Source: Anabaena lutea FACHB-196 (GTDB lineage Bacteria > Cyanobacteriota > Cyanobacteriia > Cyanobacteriales > Nostocaceae). From it: a DNA stretch of 64,000 nucleotides. The DNA lies in NCBI RefSeq assembly GCF_014698305.1, contig NZ_JACJST010000014.1, positions 62,001-126,000 of the forward strand, in the 5' to 3' direction. Below, piece after piece: positions 31,639-63,141 of this stretch; positions within the stretch are counted from its first letter, which is position 1; the number at the start of each line of letters is the position of its first letter. The position numbers were made by a program, and so were the translations under genes. The notes below the pieces were generated by a model that saw only the letters and a program-made list of their open reading frames with translations, did no database searches and had not been told where the DNA came from.

Positions 31639-31858
31639 CTGACAAGGGTAGGTTTTTAATATTATCTGTTAAGGCAGGACTAGGAAGACAAGGAGGGAAA
31701 GTAGACAAGGAAGATTTTCTCCGCACAATGGTCTTTTGACGGACTGTTCTTGTTACCAAGAGAATATGATTTTGTACGGTTTTCCTCCCTTGTCCACTGT
31801 CCTTCCTTGTCCACCAAGTCTAGCCCTCACGACAATGTAAAATACCTACCCTTGTGAG
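31639..31858 (+). mobile_element. MITE-like palindromic element B, copy 2
   Basis: This 220-bp copy has the ends CTGACAAGGG and CCCTTGTGAG and is flanked on both sides by the exact 11-bp sequence GATGGGGGGAT (31628-31638 and 31859-31869). It is nearly identical to copy 1 apart from about 13 extra bases near its centre (around 31737-31749). It sits in G-rich tandem repeats. Confidence 0.9.
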
Positions 31859-35405: not shown

Positions 35406-36005
35406 GTGATTAAAAACGATATTTGGATTACTGAAATGGCTCAAAAAGGGCTGATTTCGCCTTTTGAACCAAGCTTAGTCCGAAAAGTGCAAAAAGACAC
35501 ATCTGTAGCAGTTCAACCTGTAATCAGCTATGGTTTATCTTCCTATGGCTATGATATCCGCCTTTCATCAGCTGAGTTTCGGATTTTTCGCCACATTCCC
35601 GGAACTGTCGTAGATCCCAAAAACTTTAATCCTCAAAATCTAGAACCAACAGCACTACACACAGATGCCAGTGGTAGCTATTTTATCTTACCTGCTCATT
35701 CCTATGGACTGGGAGTTGCTTTAGAAAAACTGGCGGTTCCAGAAAATATCACAGTAATTTGTATTGGTAAATCTACTTATGCTCGTTGCGGTATAATAGC
35801 AAATCTAACTCCTGCGGAAGCTGCATGGCGAGGTCATCTCACTTTGGAATTTTCCAATTCTTCCAGTGCTGACTGTCGCATCTACGCTGATGAAGGTGTC
35901 GTACAATTACTATTTTTAGAAGGCGAACCCTGCGCTATTAGTTACGAAGCTCGTCAGGGTAAATATCAGGATCAAATGGAAACTGTGACTCTTGCTCGCG
36001 TATAG
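35406..36005 (+). CDS. dCTP deaminase Dcd
   Basis: The 199-residue protein should deaminate dCTP to dUTP, feeding thymidylate synthesis. Landmarks are the N-terminus MIKNDIWI, SSYGYDIRLS, VICIGKSTYARCGI and EAAWRGHLTLEFSNSS with the catalytic Glu, and the closing YQDQ. The start is a GTG at 35406. The nearby thymidylate-synthase-like gene at 36917 fits the same pathway. Length is normal for the family. Confidence 0.93.
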   Translation: MIKNDIWITEMAQKGLISPFEPSLVRKVQKDTSVAVQPVISYGLSSYGYDIRLSSAEFRIFRHIPGTVVDPKNFNPQNLEPTALHTDASGSYFILPAHSYGLGVALEKLAVPENITVICIGKSTYARCGIIANLTPAEAAWRGHLTLEFSNSSSADCRIYADEGVVQLLFLEGEPCAISYEARQGKYQDQMETVTLARV

Positions 36006-36114: not shown

Positions 36115-36459
36115 ATGTCAGAAGAACCAATCTCAGATCCATTTTTGATTCAACTATTAGAAGGGTATAATTTAACAGAGGTGGCTGAGATTGAAAAATA
36201 TATGACCGAGTGGGATGCTGCTACTTATAGCAGTGTTGCTCAGAGTATATTAGACCATGCAGCTAGAAAAGATATTGACCCTTTAAAGTATTTACGCAAA
36301 GCTCATAACTTTAATAAAAAAGGAGCTATCAGAGTTCCAAAAACTGGATATCGTGGAGATAGTTCAGCAGTATATCGGAAAGGTAATGAATATCTGATTG
36401 TCAGACCAGACAAATATGGTAGCGAAAAGATAGTTACTTATGGAGTTAACGATGACTGA
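36115..36459 (+). CDS. Hypothetical protein, first gene of an overlapping pair
   Basis: I do not recognise this 114-residue protein. It has a helical N-terminal half (LLEGYNLTEVAEIEKYMTEW, AQSILDHAARKDIDPLKYLRKA) and a basic, beta-like C-terminal half (KKGAIRVPKTGYRGDSSAVY, EYLIVRPDKYGSEKIVTYG). The layout, with a small basic C-terminal domain and a partner gene overlapping by 8 bp, resembles toxin-immunity or toxin-antitoxin pairs, but no catalytic motif is evident. It starts 109 bp after dcd. Confidence 0.6.
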   Translation: MSEEPISDPFLIQLLEGYNLTEVAEIEKYMTEWDAATYSSVAQSILDHAARKDIDPLKYLRKAHNFNKKGAIRVPKTGYRGDSSAVYRKGNEYLIVRPDKYGSEKIVTYGVNDD

Positions 36460-36844
36460 AGCAATTTTAAATGAGCAGGAATTGATTAAGAGAAATATTG
36501 CTCAATTATTGTCACAGTTGACAAATATCTATCAAAACACCCGCAGCGAGAGAAAAGAAATTGCTACTCAGTTTCCACCAGAAAATGAAGAGTTTTCACT
36601 GCTAGAAGAAATTGAACTTTTAACGGTAAATTTAAGAGGTTATGCCAGTCAAATTGCAGCTACAGGTGACATAGTTAACAAGGAGCAGGTAATTTCTCAA
36701 TTACAAGCAATGCGAGTTTTTAGTATTACCCAAATTGGGAAATTTTACTTTAACAATAATGGTAAGTATGAACAGATGAAGGATTATATTAGAACTTTGG
36801 ATTACTTGAGATTGTTATTGTTAGAATATTTGCAGTCTGTTTAA
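36452..36844 (+). CDS. Hypothetical helical protein, second gene of an overlapping pair
   Basis: The 130-residue product begins MTEAILNEQELIKRNIAQLL at ATG 36452, eight bases before the preceding gene ends (shared ATGACTGA). It is acidic and appears all-helical (LLEEIELLTVNLRGYASQIAA, YIRTLDYLRLLLLEYL). An acidic helical partner is what one would expect of an immunity protein or antitoxin, but this is only a structural impression. A further in-frame ATG at 36440 lies inside the first gene. Confidence 0.6.
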   Translation: MTEAILNEQELIKRNIAQLLSQLTNIYQNTRSERKEIATQFPPENEEFSLLEEIELLTVNLRGYASQIAATGDIVNKEQVISQLQAMRVFSITQIGKFYFNNNGKYEQMKDYIRTLDYLRLLLLEYLQSV

Positions 36845-36916: not shown

Positions 36917-38455
36917 TTAGACATTTGATAAGTATAAAGTTGTCTTAATTGTCAAAGGTTTATCTTGCTCATAAATCAATTCTTGCTTGCTTGACAGTGC
37001 CATTTCAGCTTTTTGCAACTCCCCACCCAAATAAATCGCGTGTTCAACTTGCAAACCTGGACAATCTGCTACTATTTGTAGAGAAAGTTGACTTGCTGAT
37101 TTACCTGAATAACAATTAACTACTTCTCCAGAACCAGGAGTTGTATGTTCCACAATAATAATGCCATCCTGGATATAAATAACAAAACTACCCGCAGGAT
37201 CAGCGTAATCTCGTTGTTGACAAATTTTGGCGTATTGGGATGTAATTACATTTTCAGTATTTTCAAAACAGTCATCATAAATATGGGCGCTTTGACTAAT
37301 GGTAATTAATGAACCCATTTTTAAAGCATGATTAGATTTTTGAGTAATAGAATTATAAATATATTTTTGTAACTCCCGTAATCCCATAGCATTTGCAGGC
37401 CACGCGGAGAACATATCATTACTGCGGAAAGTTGCTGTTAAAGATAGTTCATTATCAACTATTCTTACCCAAATATGATTTAGGCAAGGTGGACTATCAT
37501 TAGCATCATGACTAGCATCCCATAAAGACATTACTGCTCTTGCGGAATCAATATCAGCTACTAGTTTATCAATTACTTGTTGAATTTGATCGCGTCCGAA
37601 CCAAGAACGTAAACGTTGCCCATAAGTATATTTCACGCCTTCTCGATTCGGTGCATCATCTAAAATTTGCGAAATATATTCTGATAAAAAACTTCTATCA
37701 ATTGGTAAATAATTGGGTTCAGGAAAATAAAAATCATCAGGTTCATTGGTGACAACTGCCATTAAATCTATTAATTCTTGCCATTTGCCATCATAACCAG
37801 TTGGTCTAATTGTTCCAGTTGTCTTAATGCGATGAATGATTTTTACCCAAGTTTCGGCTATGGTTTTACCTTCAATTCTATGTCCATAGCGTGTTCCTGG
37901 TAAAACTGTGGGTTCAACGGTAGCCATAGGAAATTCTAAAGGAACTCCCCAAGGATCAATTATTTCTTTTTGGGCGTAATGCTTAATTTGTGCAACTGCT
38001 TCAGTAATTGATTTGGCTTCTTGAACTTCTATAGAAAGTCTGAGTTTTTCTAAAGCATTTATATCAATATCAATATCAATATAACCAGGAATCGGAGAAA
38101 GAATTATCCAAGATTTACGCCCTGTATCGCTAATGCTTTCTTCAACACCATTATGAAAAAAGTCGAGCAAGCATTGACAAGCACCTGCATTTTTATCTTC
38201 TTTGGTAGCGTTGAGAATTACTAAATGACGAACATGGGGATTTAATAACAAATTGCGTATTAGTAAATTTATACCCCTAGTGGGTGAATATAACTGACCA
38301 ATTACAGCGTACTCTGATGGTTGTAGGTGTTTTGCGATCGCTTGCTTCACCGTCCATCCTGTAATCACTGCCGTTTGCCCATAACCGTAAATCAACTGGT
38401 TGGGCTTGTGCTGTGCCGCGTAACGAAATTCAGTTGCGTGACTCGTTCCTGTCAT
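36917..38455 (-). CDS. Thymidylate-synthase-like protein with N-terminal DUF4346-like domain
   Basis: The 512-residue protein has two parts. Residues 1-200 include LIYGYGQTAVITGWTVKQAI, YAVIGQLYSPTRGINLLIRN and HVRHLVILNATKEDKNAG, resembling the DUF4346 domain known from archaeal MtrA-type proteins. Residues ~205-512 resemble thymidylate synthase: SPPCLNHIW with a Cys at residue 324 where the catalytic Cys stands, FRSNDMFSAWPANAMGL (R-S-x-D substrate contact) and SQSAHIYDDCFENTE (H-x-Y). The usual bacterial RxxPxx and C-terminal motifs are not obvious, suggesting an archaeal-type or dUMP/dCMP hydroxymethylase-like relative. It converges on the overlapping gene pair next to dcd. Confidence 0.65.
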   Translation of the reverse strand: MTGTSHATEFRYAAQHKPNQLIYGYGQTAVITGWTVKQAIAKHLQPSEYAVIGQLYSPTRGINLLIRNLLLNPHVRHLVILNATKEDKNAGACQCLLDFFHNGVEESISDTGRKSWIILSPIPGYIDIDIDINALEKLRLSIEVQEAKSITEAVAQIKHYAQKEIIDPWGVPLEFPMATVEPTVLPGTRYGHRIEGKTIAETWVKIIHRIKTTGTIRPTGYDGKWQELIDLMAVVTNEPDDFYFPEPNYLPIDRSFLSEYISQILDDAPNREGVKYTYGQRLRSWFGRDQIQQVIDKLVADIDSARAVMSLWDASHDANDSPPCLNHIWVRIVDNELSLTATFRSNDMFSAWPANAMGLRELQKYIYNSITQKSNHALKMGSLITISQSAHIYDDCFENTENVITSQYAKICQQRDYADPAGSFVIYIQDGIIIVEHTTPGSGEVVNCYSGKSASQLSLQIVADCPGLQVEHAIYLGGELQKAEMALSSKQELIYEQDKPLTIKTTLYLSNV

Positions 38456-38749: not shown

Positions 38750-39826
38750 ATGGCAATCAACACTGAGAATGCAGGCAAGCAAAAAGCGCTGAATATGGTA
38801 CTCAACCAGATTGAGCGCAGTTTTGGTAAAGGAGCAATCATGCGCCTGGGTGATGCTACCCGAATGCGTGTAGAGACTATTTCCACAGGGGCGCTCACCT
38901 TAGATTTAGCATTGGGTGGCGGTTTACCCAAAGGGCGAGTGATAGAGATATATGGACCGGAAAGTTCTGGTAAAACCACATTAGCCCTACACGCCCTGGC
39001 CGAAGTGCAGAAAAATGGCGGTATCGCTGCCTTTGTTGATGCTGAACACGCCCTTGATCCTACTTACGCTGCTGCATTAGGTGTAGATATAGAAAACTTG
39101 TTTGTTTCTCAACCGGACACTGGCGAATCAGCTTTAGAAATAGTCGATCAGTTGGTGCGCTCTGCCGCAGTTGATATTGTAGTTATAGACTCCGTAGCCG
39201 CACTAGTACCCCGCGCTGAAATTGAAGGGGATATGGGTGATATCCACGTTGGTCTACAAGCCCGGTTAATGAGCCAAGCTCTACGTAAAATCACTGGCAA
39301 TATTGGTAAATCTGGTTGCACAGTCATTTTTATCAACCAGTTGCGACAAAAAATTGGTGTTACATACGGTAGCCCAGAAACGACAACGGGTGGTAATGCA
39401 TTGAAGTTTTACGCGTCAGTACGTCTCGATATTCGCCGGATTCAAACCTTGAAAAAAGGTACAGATGAATTCGGTAATCGGGTCAAAGTCAAAGTCGCAA
39501 AAAATAAAGTAGCACCACCTTTTAGAATTGCCGAATTTGACATCATTTTTGGTAAAGGAGTTTCTACCCTGGGTTGTTTAGTTGATTTAGCAGAAGAAAC
39601 AGGCATTCTCCTACGTAAAGGTGCTTGGTACAGCTACAACGGTGAAAACATTTCTCAAGGTCGAGATAACGCCATCAAATATCTAGAAGAGAAGCCAGAA
39701 TTTGCCAGCAAAATTGAAGAGCAAGTTCGTGAAAAATTAGACAAGGGGGCTGTGGTTTCTGCTAACTCTGTAGCTAAGGTCAGCGAAGAAGACGAAGAGG
39801 AAGAAATCGAATTAGAGGAAGAGTAA
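38750..39826 (+). CDS. Recombinase RecA
   Basis: The 358-residue protein drives homologous strand exchange and LexA cleavage. It shows [19 protein letters not shown], Walker [10 protein letters not shown], the Walker B strand [12 protein letters not shown], loop region [18 protein letters not shown], and [36 protein letters not shown]. The C-terminal tail is extremely acidic ([14 protein letters not shown]), as in other cyanobacterial RecA. A LexA-like box lies upstream. Length and start ([14 protein letters not shown]) are typical. Confidence 0.98.
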
Positions 39827-39869: not shown

Positions 39870-40076
39870 TTCACAAGGGTAGGTATTTTACATTGTCGTG
39901 AGGGCAAGACTTGGGGGACAAGGAAGGACAGTGGACAAGGGAGGAAACCAGTACAAAATTATATTCTCTTGGTAACAAAAAGACCATTGTGCGGAGAAAA
40001 TCTTCCTTGTCTACTTTCCCTCCTTGTCTTCCTAGTCCTGCCTTAACAGATAATATTAAAAACCTACCCTTGTCAG
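39870..40076 (-). mobile_element. MITE-like palindromic element B, copy 3
   Basis: This 207-bp copy is inverted relative to the other two. Its ends are TTCACAAGGG and CCCTTGTCAG, and it is flanked by the exact 11-bp sequence CACGGGGACAC (39859-39869 and 40077-40087). It follows recA by 43 bp and sits in GGGGACAC-type tandem repeats. It is nearly identical to copy 1 over the whole length. Confidence 0.9.
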
Positions 40077-61221: not shown

Positions 61222-63141
61222 CTATCCAAAATTTACAGCATATTTTTCAGCCCATCGAATCAAATTCAGCCAGCGCCATATACGGAAATTAAAAGGCTTG
61301 CGTCCTTCAATAACTGCTCGCCACTCCCTCTCTACGACATCAATTTTGAGTACAGGAATCGACGGTTTGCTATGTAGTACTTCTTCTACCCAAGGACTTA
61401 AAGCAGTTAACCAACTAAACTCAGGAGTAGCAAAACCAATCTTATCCCGGCGATTCAGAATTGTATCTGGAACAATGCCACGCATCGCCCTTCTAAATAC
61501 AGCCTTACTAGTGCCATCAGGAGCAATAATATATTCTTCAGGTAAAGAGAACATAAAATTAACTAAAGTTGGCGTTAAAAAAGGAACGCGGCTTTCAATG
61601 GAAAAAGCCATAGAGTTACGATCCTCATAGCGTAATAGTGAAATCAAACTATTTTCAAGATCGTGTTTAAGTCGCTCCCAGAATACTTCTCGCTTGTAAT
61701 TTTGTGTTGTGGAAGCAAGCATTACCCCCTGTTCAGTAAACCAAGTACTATTCAACCAAGATGGAGTAAAGCTTTTTCCCACTAAATCTCTAGCTGCACC
61801 TTGGAGATTTTCAGGTAATAAAAATCCTCCTCCAATTAGCAGTAGCTTCAGACTACTAATATTAGGCAAACTAGATGCTTTTTGTAGAAACTGAGTTGCT
61901 TTACCCAATTGTCCTTGACGAATCAATGAGGCTAATCGCGCACCTAAATAACCAGAATAACCTCCTAACATTTCATCCGCTCCCTGTCCATCGAGCATGA
62001 CTTTAATTCCTGCCTCCTGAGCCAATCGAAATACTCGATTTTGGGCGTAAATACTAGTACTACCAAAGGGTTCATCTTGAACCTGGATCAGGTGATTTAA
62101 ATCTTCTACTAATTGAGTCGGAGTCGGTTGAGTTGTGTGCATAATTGAGTTAGCAGCCTTGCTGACGATCTTCATCCACTGCTCTTCGCTCACTTTGGGG
62201 TCATCTGCTAAGTAACTGAAGGTGTGTATTTCTAAATCTGGCTCTAAGTAGCGCATTGCCATGACAATGCTGGATGAGTCAATTCCTCCTGAAAGGGCTG
62301 CTCCCACTGCTACATCACTACGTAGGTGAAGTTTGACACTATTAAGAAATAGTTCCCGCAATTGTTCTGCCGCTTCTTCAAAGGAAATTTCTAAGCGTTG
62401 GTTGAGATTAACTTGCCAATAACGCACTGGATCAAATTTGTAGGGAGCGTCTAGAGAAAATTCTAGATAATGAGCGGCAGGCAATTGCCGAATATCAGCT
62501 AAAAGGGTTTCTCCTCCTTGATCTGTTAGTCCAAGACACAGATAATCGTAGAGTCTTTGAGGATTGATTCGATGATTTAAACCTGGAAATTCTAGAAGAG
62601 CTTTGATTTCAGAAGCAAAGGCAAACCCATTATGCCAATGAGTATAGTAAAGGGGCTTGATACCAAAGAAGTCTCTAGCAATAAATATCGAACGTTTCTG
62701 GGTATCCAGAATTGCAAAGGCGAACATTCCCACCAGCCTATTTAGTGCTTGATTTCCCCAATGAGCGTAAGCGGTGAGCAGAACTTCCGTGTCTGAATGA
62801 GAATGAAATGTGTGACCTAATGCCTTAAGTTCTGCTTGTAATTCTAAATAGTTATATATTTCCCCATTAAAAACAATCGCATAACGTCCGTCCGGCGTTA
62901 CCATCGGTTGCCAACCAGCTTCGCTGAGGTCGAGAATGGAAAGACGACGGTGAACCAAGCCAACCAAACAGTTTTGCAATTCATCAGGATTGCGGGAAAG
63001 CTGTACGGGTGATTCTCCTGACCAACCTAAAAATCCAAAATCATCAGGACCACGAGTATATAAAGAACTACTCACACTTTTTAAGAGTTGTGAATCAATC
63101 TTTGAGCGGTCTAATTTTAATATTCCAGCAATTCCACACAT
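61222..63141 (-). CDS. Glutamine-hydrolysing asparagine synthase-type enzyme (AsnB)
   Basis: The 639-residue protein has the N-terminal Ntn amidotransferase domain with catalytic Cys2 (MCGIAGIL), VGLVHRRLSILDLS and NGEIYNYLELQ, and a C-terminal ATP-pyrophosphatase domain with the PP-loop SGGIDSS, AQEAGIKVMLDGQGADEMLGGY and RYEDRNSMAFSIESRVPFL. Such AsnB copies within polysaccharide loci often transfer ammonia to sugar carboxylates or to other acids. It may act on a uronic acid of the glycan or produce asparagine; the locus favours the former. It is separated from the polymerase gene by 145 bp. Confidence 0.92.
   Translation of the reverse strand: MCGIAGILKLDRSKIDSQLLKSVSSSLYTRGPDDFGFLGWSGESPVQLSRNPDELQNCLVGLVHRRLSILDLSEAGWQPMVTPDGRYAIVFNGEIYNYLELQAELKALGHTFHSHSDTEVLLTAYAHWGNQALNRLVGMFAFAILDTQKRSIFIARDFFGIKPLYYTHWHNGFAFASEIKALLEFPGLNHRINPQRLYDYLCLGLTDQGGETLLADIRQLPAAHYLEFSLDAPYKFDPVRYWQVNLNQRLEISFEEAAEQLRELFLNSVKLHLRSDVAVGAALSGGIDSSSIVMAMRYLEPDLEIHTFSYLADDPKVSEEQWMKIVSKAANSIMHTTQPTPTQLVEDLNHLIQVQDEPFGSTSIYAQNRVFRLAQEAGIKVMLDGQGADEMLGGYSGYLGARLASLIRQGQLGKATQFLQKASSLPNISSLKLLLIGGGFLLPENLQGAARDLVGKSFTPSWLNSTWFTEQGVMLASTTQNYKREVFWERLKHDLENSLISLLRYEDRNSMAFSIESRVPFLTPTLVNFMFSLPEEYIIAPDGTSKAVFRRAMRGIVPDTILNRRDKIGFATPEFSWLTALSPWVEEVLHSKPSIPVLKIDVVEREWRAVIEGRKPFNFRIWRWLNLIRWAEKYAVNFG

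Follow-up and report, generated by a model that had tools for sequence, protein, structure and literature searches.

The synthesis of dTMP is essential, and the literature that we searched describes two types of enzyme for it, ThyA and ThyX. A gene of the cyanobacterium Anabaena lutea FACHB-196, which encodes a protein with the catalytic motifs of ThyA between two other domains, raises the question of whether it provides this strain with dTMP and what the additional domains contribute. The window, that is the whole stretch of 64,000 nucleotides analysed here, covers positions 62,001 to 126,000 of the forward strand of contig NZ_JACJST010000014.1 (assembly GCF_014698305.1), and the features needed in the following are located in it as listed.

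35406..36005, plus strand: dcd, dCTP deaminase (TIGR02274), convergent neighbour of the fusion gene
36115-36459 and 36440-36844: two overlapping small ORFs in the interval between dcd and the fusion gene, no family over the cut-off (Pfam, NCBIfam)
36917..38455, minus strand: coding sequence of the putative three-domain thymidylate synthase (TS), 512 aa, hereafter called the fusion
36962..37201, minus strand: DUF4346 domain (PF14251), residues 419-498, C-terminal, from Pfam
37220..37897, minus strand: TS core, residues 187-412, from TIGR03283, PF00303 and comparison of the model with the PDB (Z 19-23)
37277..37285, minus strand: H391-I-Y393, aligned with E. coli His207 and Tyr209 (profile alignment)
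37391..37393, minus strand: Asn355, aligned with E. coli Asn177 (profile alignment)
37415..37426, minus strand: R344-S345-N346-D347, aligned with E. coli R166, S167, C168 and D169 (profile alignment)
37484..37486, minus strand: codon TGC of Cys324, proposed nucleophile, aligned with E. coli Cys146 (profile alignment)
37973..38422, minus strand: MtrA-like N-terminal domain, residues 12-161, from NF002128 and PF04208, both under the cut-off, and from the predicted model

The reading frame starts with ATG and ends with TAA, and its codons were checked. Relatives of the protein are encoded at 176 places in public genomes (tblastn), and since an open frame of 494-518 aa is kept at all of the best 80 of these 176 loci, a chance or broken ORF could be ruled out; in 11 of the 80 the stop precedes the tblastn end by a few codons, and five are without an ATG near the start. 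The dcd product scores 112.7 bits with TIGR02274 (cut-off 92.8), and a dcd match, partial in some cases, was present in the fetched flank of the fusion gene at 29 of the 80 related loci and always on the opposite strand. This linkage was counted at fusion loci only, 53 of which have full 6-kb flanks, with dcd in 16 of them; the linked loci come from Gloeocapsopsis, Hydrococcus, Aliterella and Phormidium and also from Nostocales. On the other side of the fusion gene lies a gene that we take from its sequence to be recA (38750-39826, plus strand). The small ORFs 36115-36459 and 36440-36844 lie near the fusion gene at three and five of the 80 loci, respectively. An inverted repeat pair of about 210 bases (31639-31857 and 39871-40076; 111 nt at 95% and 99 nt at 100%) encloses an 8-kb stretch with dcd, the fusion gene and recA, and the repeat may be a dispersed element.

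Pfam and NCBIfam scans gave an MtrA-like N-terminus, a methanogen-type TS core and a C-terminal DUF4346 domain, in this order. The matches over the cut-off are those to PF14251 at residues 419-498 (83.3 bits, cut-off 29.6, E 2.2e-23) and to PF00303 (58.4 bits, cut-off 24.3, E 8.1e-16), which covers positions 90-226 of 266 of that family. Under the cut-off are TIGR03283 at residues 194-397 (E 3.3e-42; 144.3 bits, 146.9 in a second scan, cut-off 174.55), PF04208 (MtrA; 14.7 bits, cut-off 25, E 0.025) and, far under it, NF002128 (53.6 bits over two stretches, E 1.9e-14, cut-off 568). In the Pfam scan the protein had no match to PF02511 (ThyX) and none of its domains had a match to dihydrofolate reductase (DHFR). 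The first-pass annotation of this locus was exact in coordinates, strand and length, it rightly named dcd as the neighbour, and the motifs PPC (with Cys324), RSND (344-347) and HIY (391-393) are present as it had said; the DUF4346-like domain, which it had placed at the N-terminus, belongs to the opposite end. All three domains are present in 81/81 genome rows and 70/80 viral rows of our conservation alignment, which comprises 80 relatives from genomes and 80 from viruses besides the window protein (161 rows, down to about 45% identity with the window protein); of the ten remaining viral rows eight run off a contig end and two are interrupted frames. This three-domain architecture is undescribed in the literature that we searched, namely open-licence full texts, in which the term 'DUF4346' was not found either.

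For a closer look at the core, a profile of 53 relatives was aligned with E. coli ThyA. In this alignment, which starts at fusion residue 274, Cys324 falls on the catalytic Cys146, a correspondence on which the first-pass reading had depended, and Tyr278 falls on Y94. Cysteine occupies the position of Cys324 in 160/160 rows with a residue there, and likewise R344, S345, D347, N355, H391, Y393 and Y278 do not vary among the 160 or 161 rows with a residue; for the corresponding R166, S167, D169, N177, H207, Y209 and Y94 of ThyA we assume the roles usually given to them. E227, invariant in 161/161 rows, may be the equivalent of E. coli E58, judging from its context. R126 and R127 of ThyA, which we take to be the phosphate-binding arginines supplied by the partner subunit, correspond to Ala305 (Ala, Ser or Asn in 161/161 rows, never Arg) and Arg306 (Arg in 57, Ser in 103 and Asn in 1 of 161 rows). 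The alignment stops at ThyA residue 216 of 264, where DUF4346 comes next in the fusion.

An AlphaFold2 model built from the diverse 53-sequence alignment (mean pLDDT 89.6, pTM 0.82) replaced a first one built from close relatives only (pLDDT 74.5, pTM 0.47). Its residues 187-412 are predicted to adopt the TS fold, with a Z of 20.3, an rmsd of 2.5 and 203 aligned residues for the TS of L. casei (3ik1) and Z 19.0-20.3, rmsd 2.2-2.7 and 195-205 aligned residues for the TS chains among the 50 PDB matches listed. Above TS by Z among these matches are the phage dCMP hydroxylase AfhB (9iqu; Z 22.9, rmsd 2.4, 204 aligned) at the top and next the CMP hydroxymethylase MilA (5jnh; Z 20.7, rmsd 2.1, 206 aligned), and similarity of the predicted fold does not tell the activities of TS, dCMP hydroxylase and CMP hydroxymethylase apart. 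The TS domain fills the lists of both fold searches (PDB and a predicted viral library), which barely cover the flanking domains, and no named three-domain entry was among the 50 listed matches in the viral library. By its catalytic residues and its predicted fold the protein belongs to the ThyA superfamily, and it should work as a thymidylate synthase.

The flanking domains have a common counterpart in NF002128 (PRK00964.1-6, named tetrahydromethanopterin S-methyltransferase subunit A), which has no TS domain. In a test with 20 genomes, eight of them with the fusion, its positions 144-214 (or a wider stretch) matched the N-terminus and its positions 285-370 the C-terminus, in order, in 7/8 fusion genomes, only the N-terminal part passing in the eighth (G099); none of 14 control genomes had a match over the cut-off, and four matches under it came from M. 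jannaschii, M. acetivorans, S. acidocaldarius and Synechococcus elongatus. Since the two flanks match NF002128 (390 positions) in the order in which they occur in the fusion, a TS core may have been inserted there into a protein made of an MtrA-like part and DUF4346, which is known here from the family model only and which we infer to be archaeal from the name of that model. DUF4346 also seems to sit on a pterin-type enzyme, because the C-terminus (396-497) of the DHPS-like TIGR00284, presumably an archaeal protein, matches fusion residues 392-501 (E 4.7e-7); a literature search on this archaeal protein gave nothing useful. This likeness points to a possible pterin or one-carbon role of the flanks. 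The extra pterin-handling domain that had been suggested for the fusion is plausible, PF14251 being named PterinBD-DUF4346 in the library used. Several flank residues are invariant in every row with a residue, namely Y56, G61, N68, N72 and D87 (157 rows) and R139 (160) on the N-terminal side and D419 and G422 (158 rows) and H472 and Y475 (155 rows) on the C-terminal side. Against PDB sequences the DUF4346 part had one match (E 1.3), which we took as chance, as we did with the best match of the N-terminal part, the engineered repeat protein 4rzp (E 0.00048). Beyond the fusion, DUF4346 occurs on a short frame of its own in all 113 PF14251-positive genomes out of 244 of the phylum, whether the fusion is present or not, and in 20/20 genomes of the NF002128 test; these frames are 124-275 aa long, mostly about 130-145 (e.g. 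G000:C25:24168-24485).

The presence of thyX, which the first-pass annotation had named as a point to check, could be addressed in the genome of strain FACHB-196 (G000; 99.9% complete), where PF02511 had no match anywhere, a thymidine kinase (Tdk) was not found and the fusion is the only gene with PF00303. In a class sample of 242 cyanobacterial genomes PF00303 occurs in 28, of which 27 have the fusion, on one open frame in 26 and in pieces in G322, while the remaining one, G259 (8% contamination), carries ThyX together with an ordinary ThyA-like frame of 359 aa. ThyX was found in 208 of the 242 genomes, in 203 over the cut-off and in five under it, and not once together with the fusion (27 vs 208 genomes; Fisher p 1.1e-29, not corrected for ancestry). 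Nineteen of the 27 fusion genomes were listed without a ThyX match and eight follow by subtraction, two of which (G322 and G332) were also negative in a search with TIGR02170. The two enzymes swap within three genera, g7 (fusion in G125 and G167 vs ThyX in G068), g20 (G039 and G099 vs G203 and G195) and g19 (G014 and G080 vs G076). ThyX was likewise found in none of 12 named fusion genomes, among them those of the Epithemia and Rhopalodia (diatom) endosymbionts, about 3 Mb in size, and of Crocosphaera watsonii WH 8501; one of the 12 (L101), judged by the length of its contig, is G072 of the class sample, so that 11 add to the count. None of the 34 ThyX-less genomes of the sample (27 with the fusion, seven with neither enzyme) has Tdk over the cut-off, with one weak match in G253. 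The seven genomes with neither enzyme are 62-87% complete in four and 93-95% complete in three cases (G250, G266, G288, G303, G308, G382 and G414), and absence of both is therefore possible in draft genomes. A published COG count for 31 cyanobacteria, with 23 ThyX and 8 ThyA as given in PMC5954106, is consistent with the exclusion; a fusion is not mentioned in the available part of that paper.

Some fusion-less genomes of g49 (e.g. G085 and G241), g63 (G193) and g50 (G089) have a ThyX to which PF02511 responds weakly and TIGR02170 below its cut-off or not at all, and they possibly possess a divergent ThyX or yet another enzyme; for G085 and G241 ThyX is unsure because TIGR02170 gave nothing. 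In G076 (C1:1709036-1710646) and in other ThyX frames of about 450-700 aa the ThyX match is split in two within the frame, as if inteins were present.

Relatives of the fusion are also encoded in 95 of 106 candidate stretches from IMG/VR, of which 80 were retained; a second viral scan returned mostly the same contigs as the first. We scanned ten neighbouring proteins on six uncultivated viral contigs and found a terminase large subunit beside the fusion on L207 (188 kb), a RecJ-like exonuclease, a DNA methyltransferase and a protein with a baseplate hub as third-ranked match on L150, NrdA and NrdB on L168 and a ribonucleotide reductase match on L221. For one protein on L207 and one on L210 no family was matched, and that on L230 belongs to an unknown family, so that L210 and L230 are without a viral sign of their own. 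Among isolate phage records 331 had a match and among plasmid records 38, in no case with a single place covering 80% of the query. Planktothrix phage contigs carry a Pfam thymidylate synthase, the architecture of which is not told in the available part of PMC10343443.

Alignment A1 contains 23 of the 26 intact sample fusions; the near-copies L039, L042 and L052, which have a PF14251 match inside a frame of 500-576 aa, were left out, and the ordinary ThyA of G259 (L032) and the G322 fragment (L058) also stand outside. A quick tree of 53 rows needs six changes between virus and cyanobacterium, four of them forced by starred branches, so that the exchange has been a repeated one; several viral branches are long. 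Phage L150 adjoins Sphaerospermopsis, and the viral L148 lies inside the clade of the window gene. For the fusion gene of Sphaerospermopsis (L097), identity with the window protein is 92-93% in three and 75-80% in two of the five blocks that precede residue 286, and it is 53-65% beyond that residue; in this later part L097 reaches 96, 86 and 74% against phage L150 and 96, 76 and 66% against the cyanobacterial L110. Phage L150 has the same mosaic as L097, and this phage copy and the Nostocales genes L097, L099, L101 and L108 carry different alleles before and after about residue 286, a pattern suggestive of recombination close to the conserved YTYGQRLRSW motif.

Taken together, genomics and homology suggest that the fusion is very probably the sole dTMP synthase of its carriers, a ThyA-superfamily enzyme with a methanogen-type core between an MtrA-like and a DUF4346 domain, and in these cyanobacteria it appears to stand in for ThyX. 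The archaeal-type dTMP synthase proposed in the first-pass annotation is thereby supported, given the TIGR03283 core (under the cut-off), the lack of ThyX and Tdk and the replacement of ThyX. Against this reading speak the replacement of R126 by Ala305 with Arg306 kept in 57/161 rows, the TIGR03283 score under the cut-off, the seven of 242 genomes with neither enzyme, the five of 208 ThyX matches under the cut-off with the unsure ThyX of G085 and G241, the nearest folds being those of a hydroxylase and a hydroxymethylase, and a strong DHFR match missing in 20 of the 27 carriers.

The activity, the substrate, the pterin and the role of the flanking domains are what we infer from genomics and homology, and they lead to the following model. 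Cys324 would attack C6 of dUMP, with Arg344, Ser345 and Asn355 holding the nucleotide as their counterparts do in ThyA, and a reduced pterin, in cyanobacteria most likely CH2-H4folate, would donate its methylene group to C5. The MtrA-like and DUF4346 domains would bind the pterin or close over it, replacing the C-terminal part of ThyA that remains unaligned with the core. Reduction would then give dTMP, and the pterin would leave either as H2folate, which is the ThyA way and needs DHFR, or as H4folate.

DHFR bears on this last step, as ThyA and FolA are normally a coupled unit (PMC9931769). Strain FACHB-196 has a strong DHFR (G000:C34, E 1.7e-43), and a strong PF00186 match (E <= 1.3e-31) occurs in 7 of 27 fusion genomes vs 19 of 207 ThyX-only genomes (p 0.018), with a weak one (25.8 bits vs cut-off 25) in the fusion genome G039. 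DHFR is thus mildly enriched among fusion genomes, as would be expected of a ThyA-type enzyme, and the 20 of 27 carriers without a strong match find no explanation in a plain ThyA-type reaction. Either an unknown reductase serves in them, or the enzyme leaves the pterin reduced. In the narrower form of the sole-synthase reading that takes the first of these ways, the chemistry is that of ordinary ThyA, the flanks have no more than a scaffolding or regulatory part, the product is H2folate, and the carriers without DHFR use an unrecognised dihydrofolate reductase. We regard this as a serious candidate with somewhat less than an even chance of being right: the enrichment of DHFR and its strong match in strain FACHB-196 argue for it, and the lack of a DHFR has already had to be accepted for ThyX bacteria, Prochlorococcus among them (PMC1971073), but passive flanks agree poorly with their ten invariant residues named above and with the presence of the three domains in every genome row and in 70 of the 80 viral ones. 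The second way would amount to a third route to dTMP, in which a TS with a cysteine nucleophile holds the pterin by its MtrA-like and DUF4346 domains, releases it as H4folate, takes its hydride from another donor and so replaces ThyX free of DHFR and exchanged between phages and cyanobacteria; this bolder proposal we consider rather unlikely. The reported non-susceptibility of cyanobacteria to trimethoprim (PMC4531292) fits an unknown reductase and a reduced pterin alike.

An enzyme for modified nucleotides, i.e. a hydroxymethylase or hydroxylase of dUMP (or dCMP), would agree with AfhB and MilA as the nearest folds and with a gene that is common on phage contigs. The fusion is, however, the only candidate dTMP synthase found in its genomes and excludes ThyX, and since an enzyme with an accessory role in nucleotide modification would not take the place of ThyX, the pyrimidine hydroxymethylase offered as an alternative in the first-pass annotation is very unlikely. 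Asn355, not Asp, stands at what we take to be the base-selecting position, which also argues against it and is still compatible with a dUMP hydroxymethylase. A literature search for a flavin dCMP hydroxylase found no paper.

The corrinoid-handling domain suggested earlier would find support in the likeness of the N-terminus to NF002128 and PF04208. In the predicted model this domain (residues 12-161) alternates strands and helices, and its profile found MtrA chains among the PDB sequences weakly, with E 0.014-0.43. MtrA is a cobalamin protein with His84 as cobalt ligand (PMC4915002), and in this weak alignment His84 falls on fusion residue 88, which is Lys88 in the window protein, Lys in 112 of 157 rows, Arg or another residue in the rest and never His; no row of the 157 has a His at residues 82-92. 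A TS in which the MtrA-like domain carries a methylcobamide and passes its methyl group to dUMP is therefore scarcely credible, and a B12 role of the fusion is disfavoured, because the corrinoid histidine of MtrA is absent.

Compared with known systems the putative dTMP synthase is closest in its core to the methanogen-type TS (TIGR03283), with which it shares the whole core (3-198 of 201 positions) and the short C-terminus; that model of 201 positions describes a single domain, whereas the fusion has two more and scores below the cut-off. A virus protein (vir249; host Methanobacteriales) aligns with fusion residues 191-393 at 28% identity. Bacterial ThyA (PF00303) has the Cys, RS.D, Asn, H.Y and Tyr positions and the fold in common with the fusion, but its R126/R127 are not kept and DUF4346 takes the place of its C-terminal part. 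TIGR00284, similar in the C-terminal part, is without a TS core. The protozoan DHFR-TS (matches 3clb and 3i3r) also joins TS with a folate-handling domain, but there the partner is DHFR, to which no domain of the fusion had a match. ThyX (PF02511), a flavin enzyme (PMC9931769), would, on the reading preferred here, serve the same purpose in the cell and swaps with the fusion, yet is unrelated in fold and sequence. Archaeal TS enzymes are described as little characterised in PMC9931769.

In summary, the carriers of the fusion form a patchy set that includes bloom-forming, nitrogen-fixing and endosymbiotic cyanobacteria, and they raise the question of how 20 of 27 of them cope without a strong DHFR match. 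As a bacterial protein the fusion would offer a genetically accessible handle both on methanogen-type TS and on the function of DUF4346.
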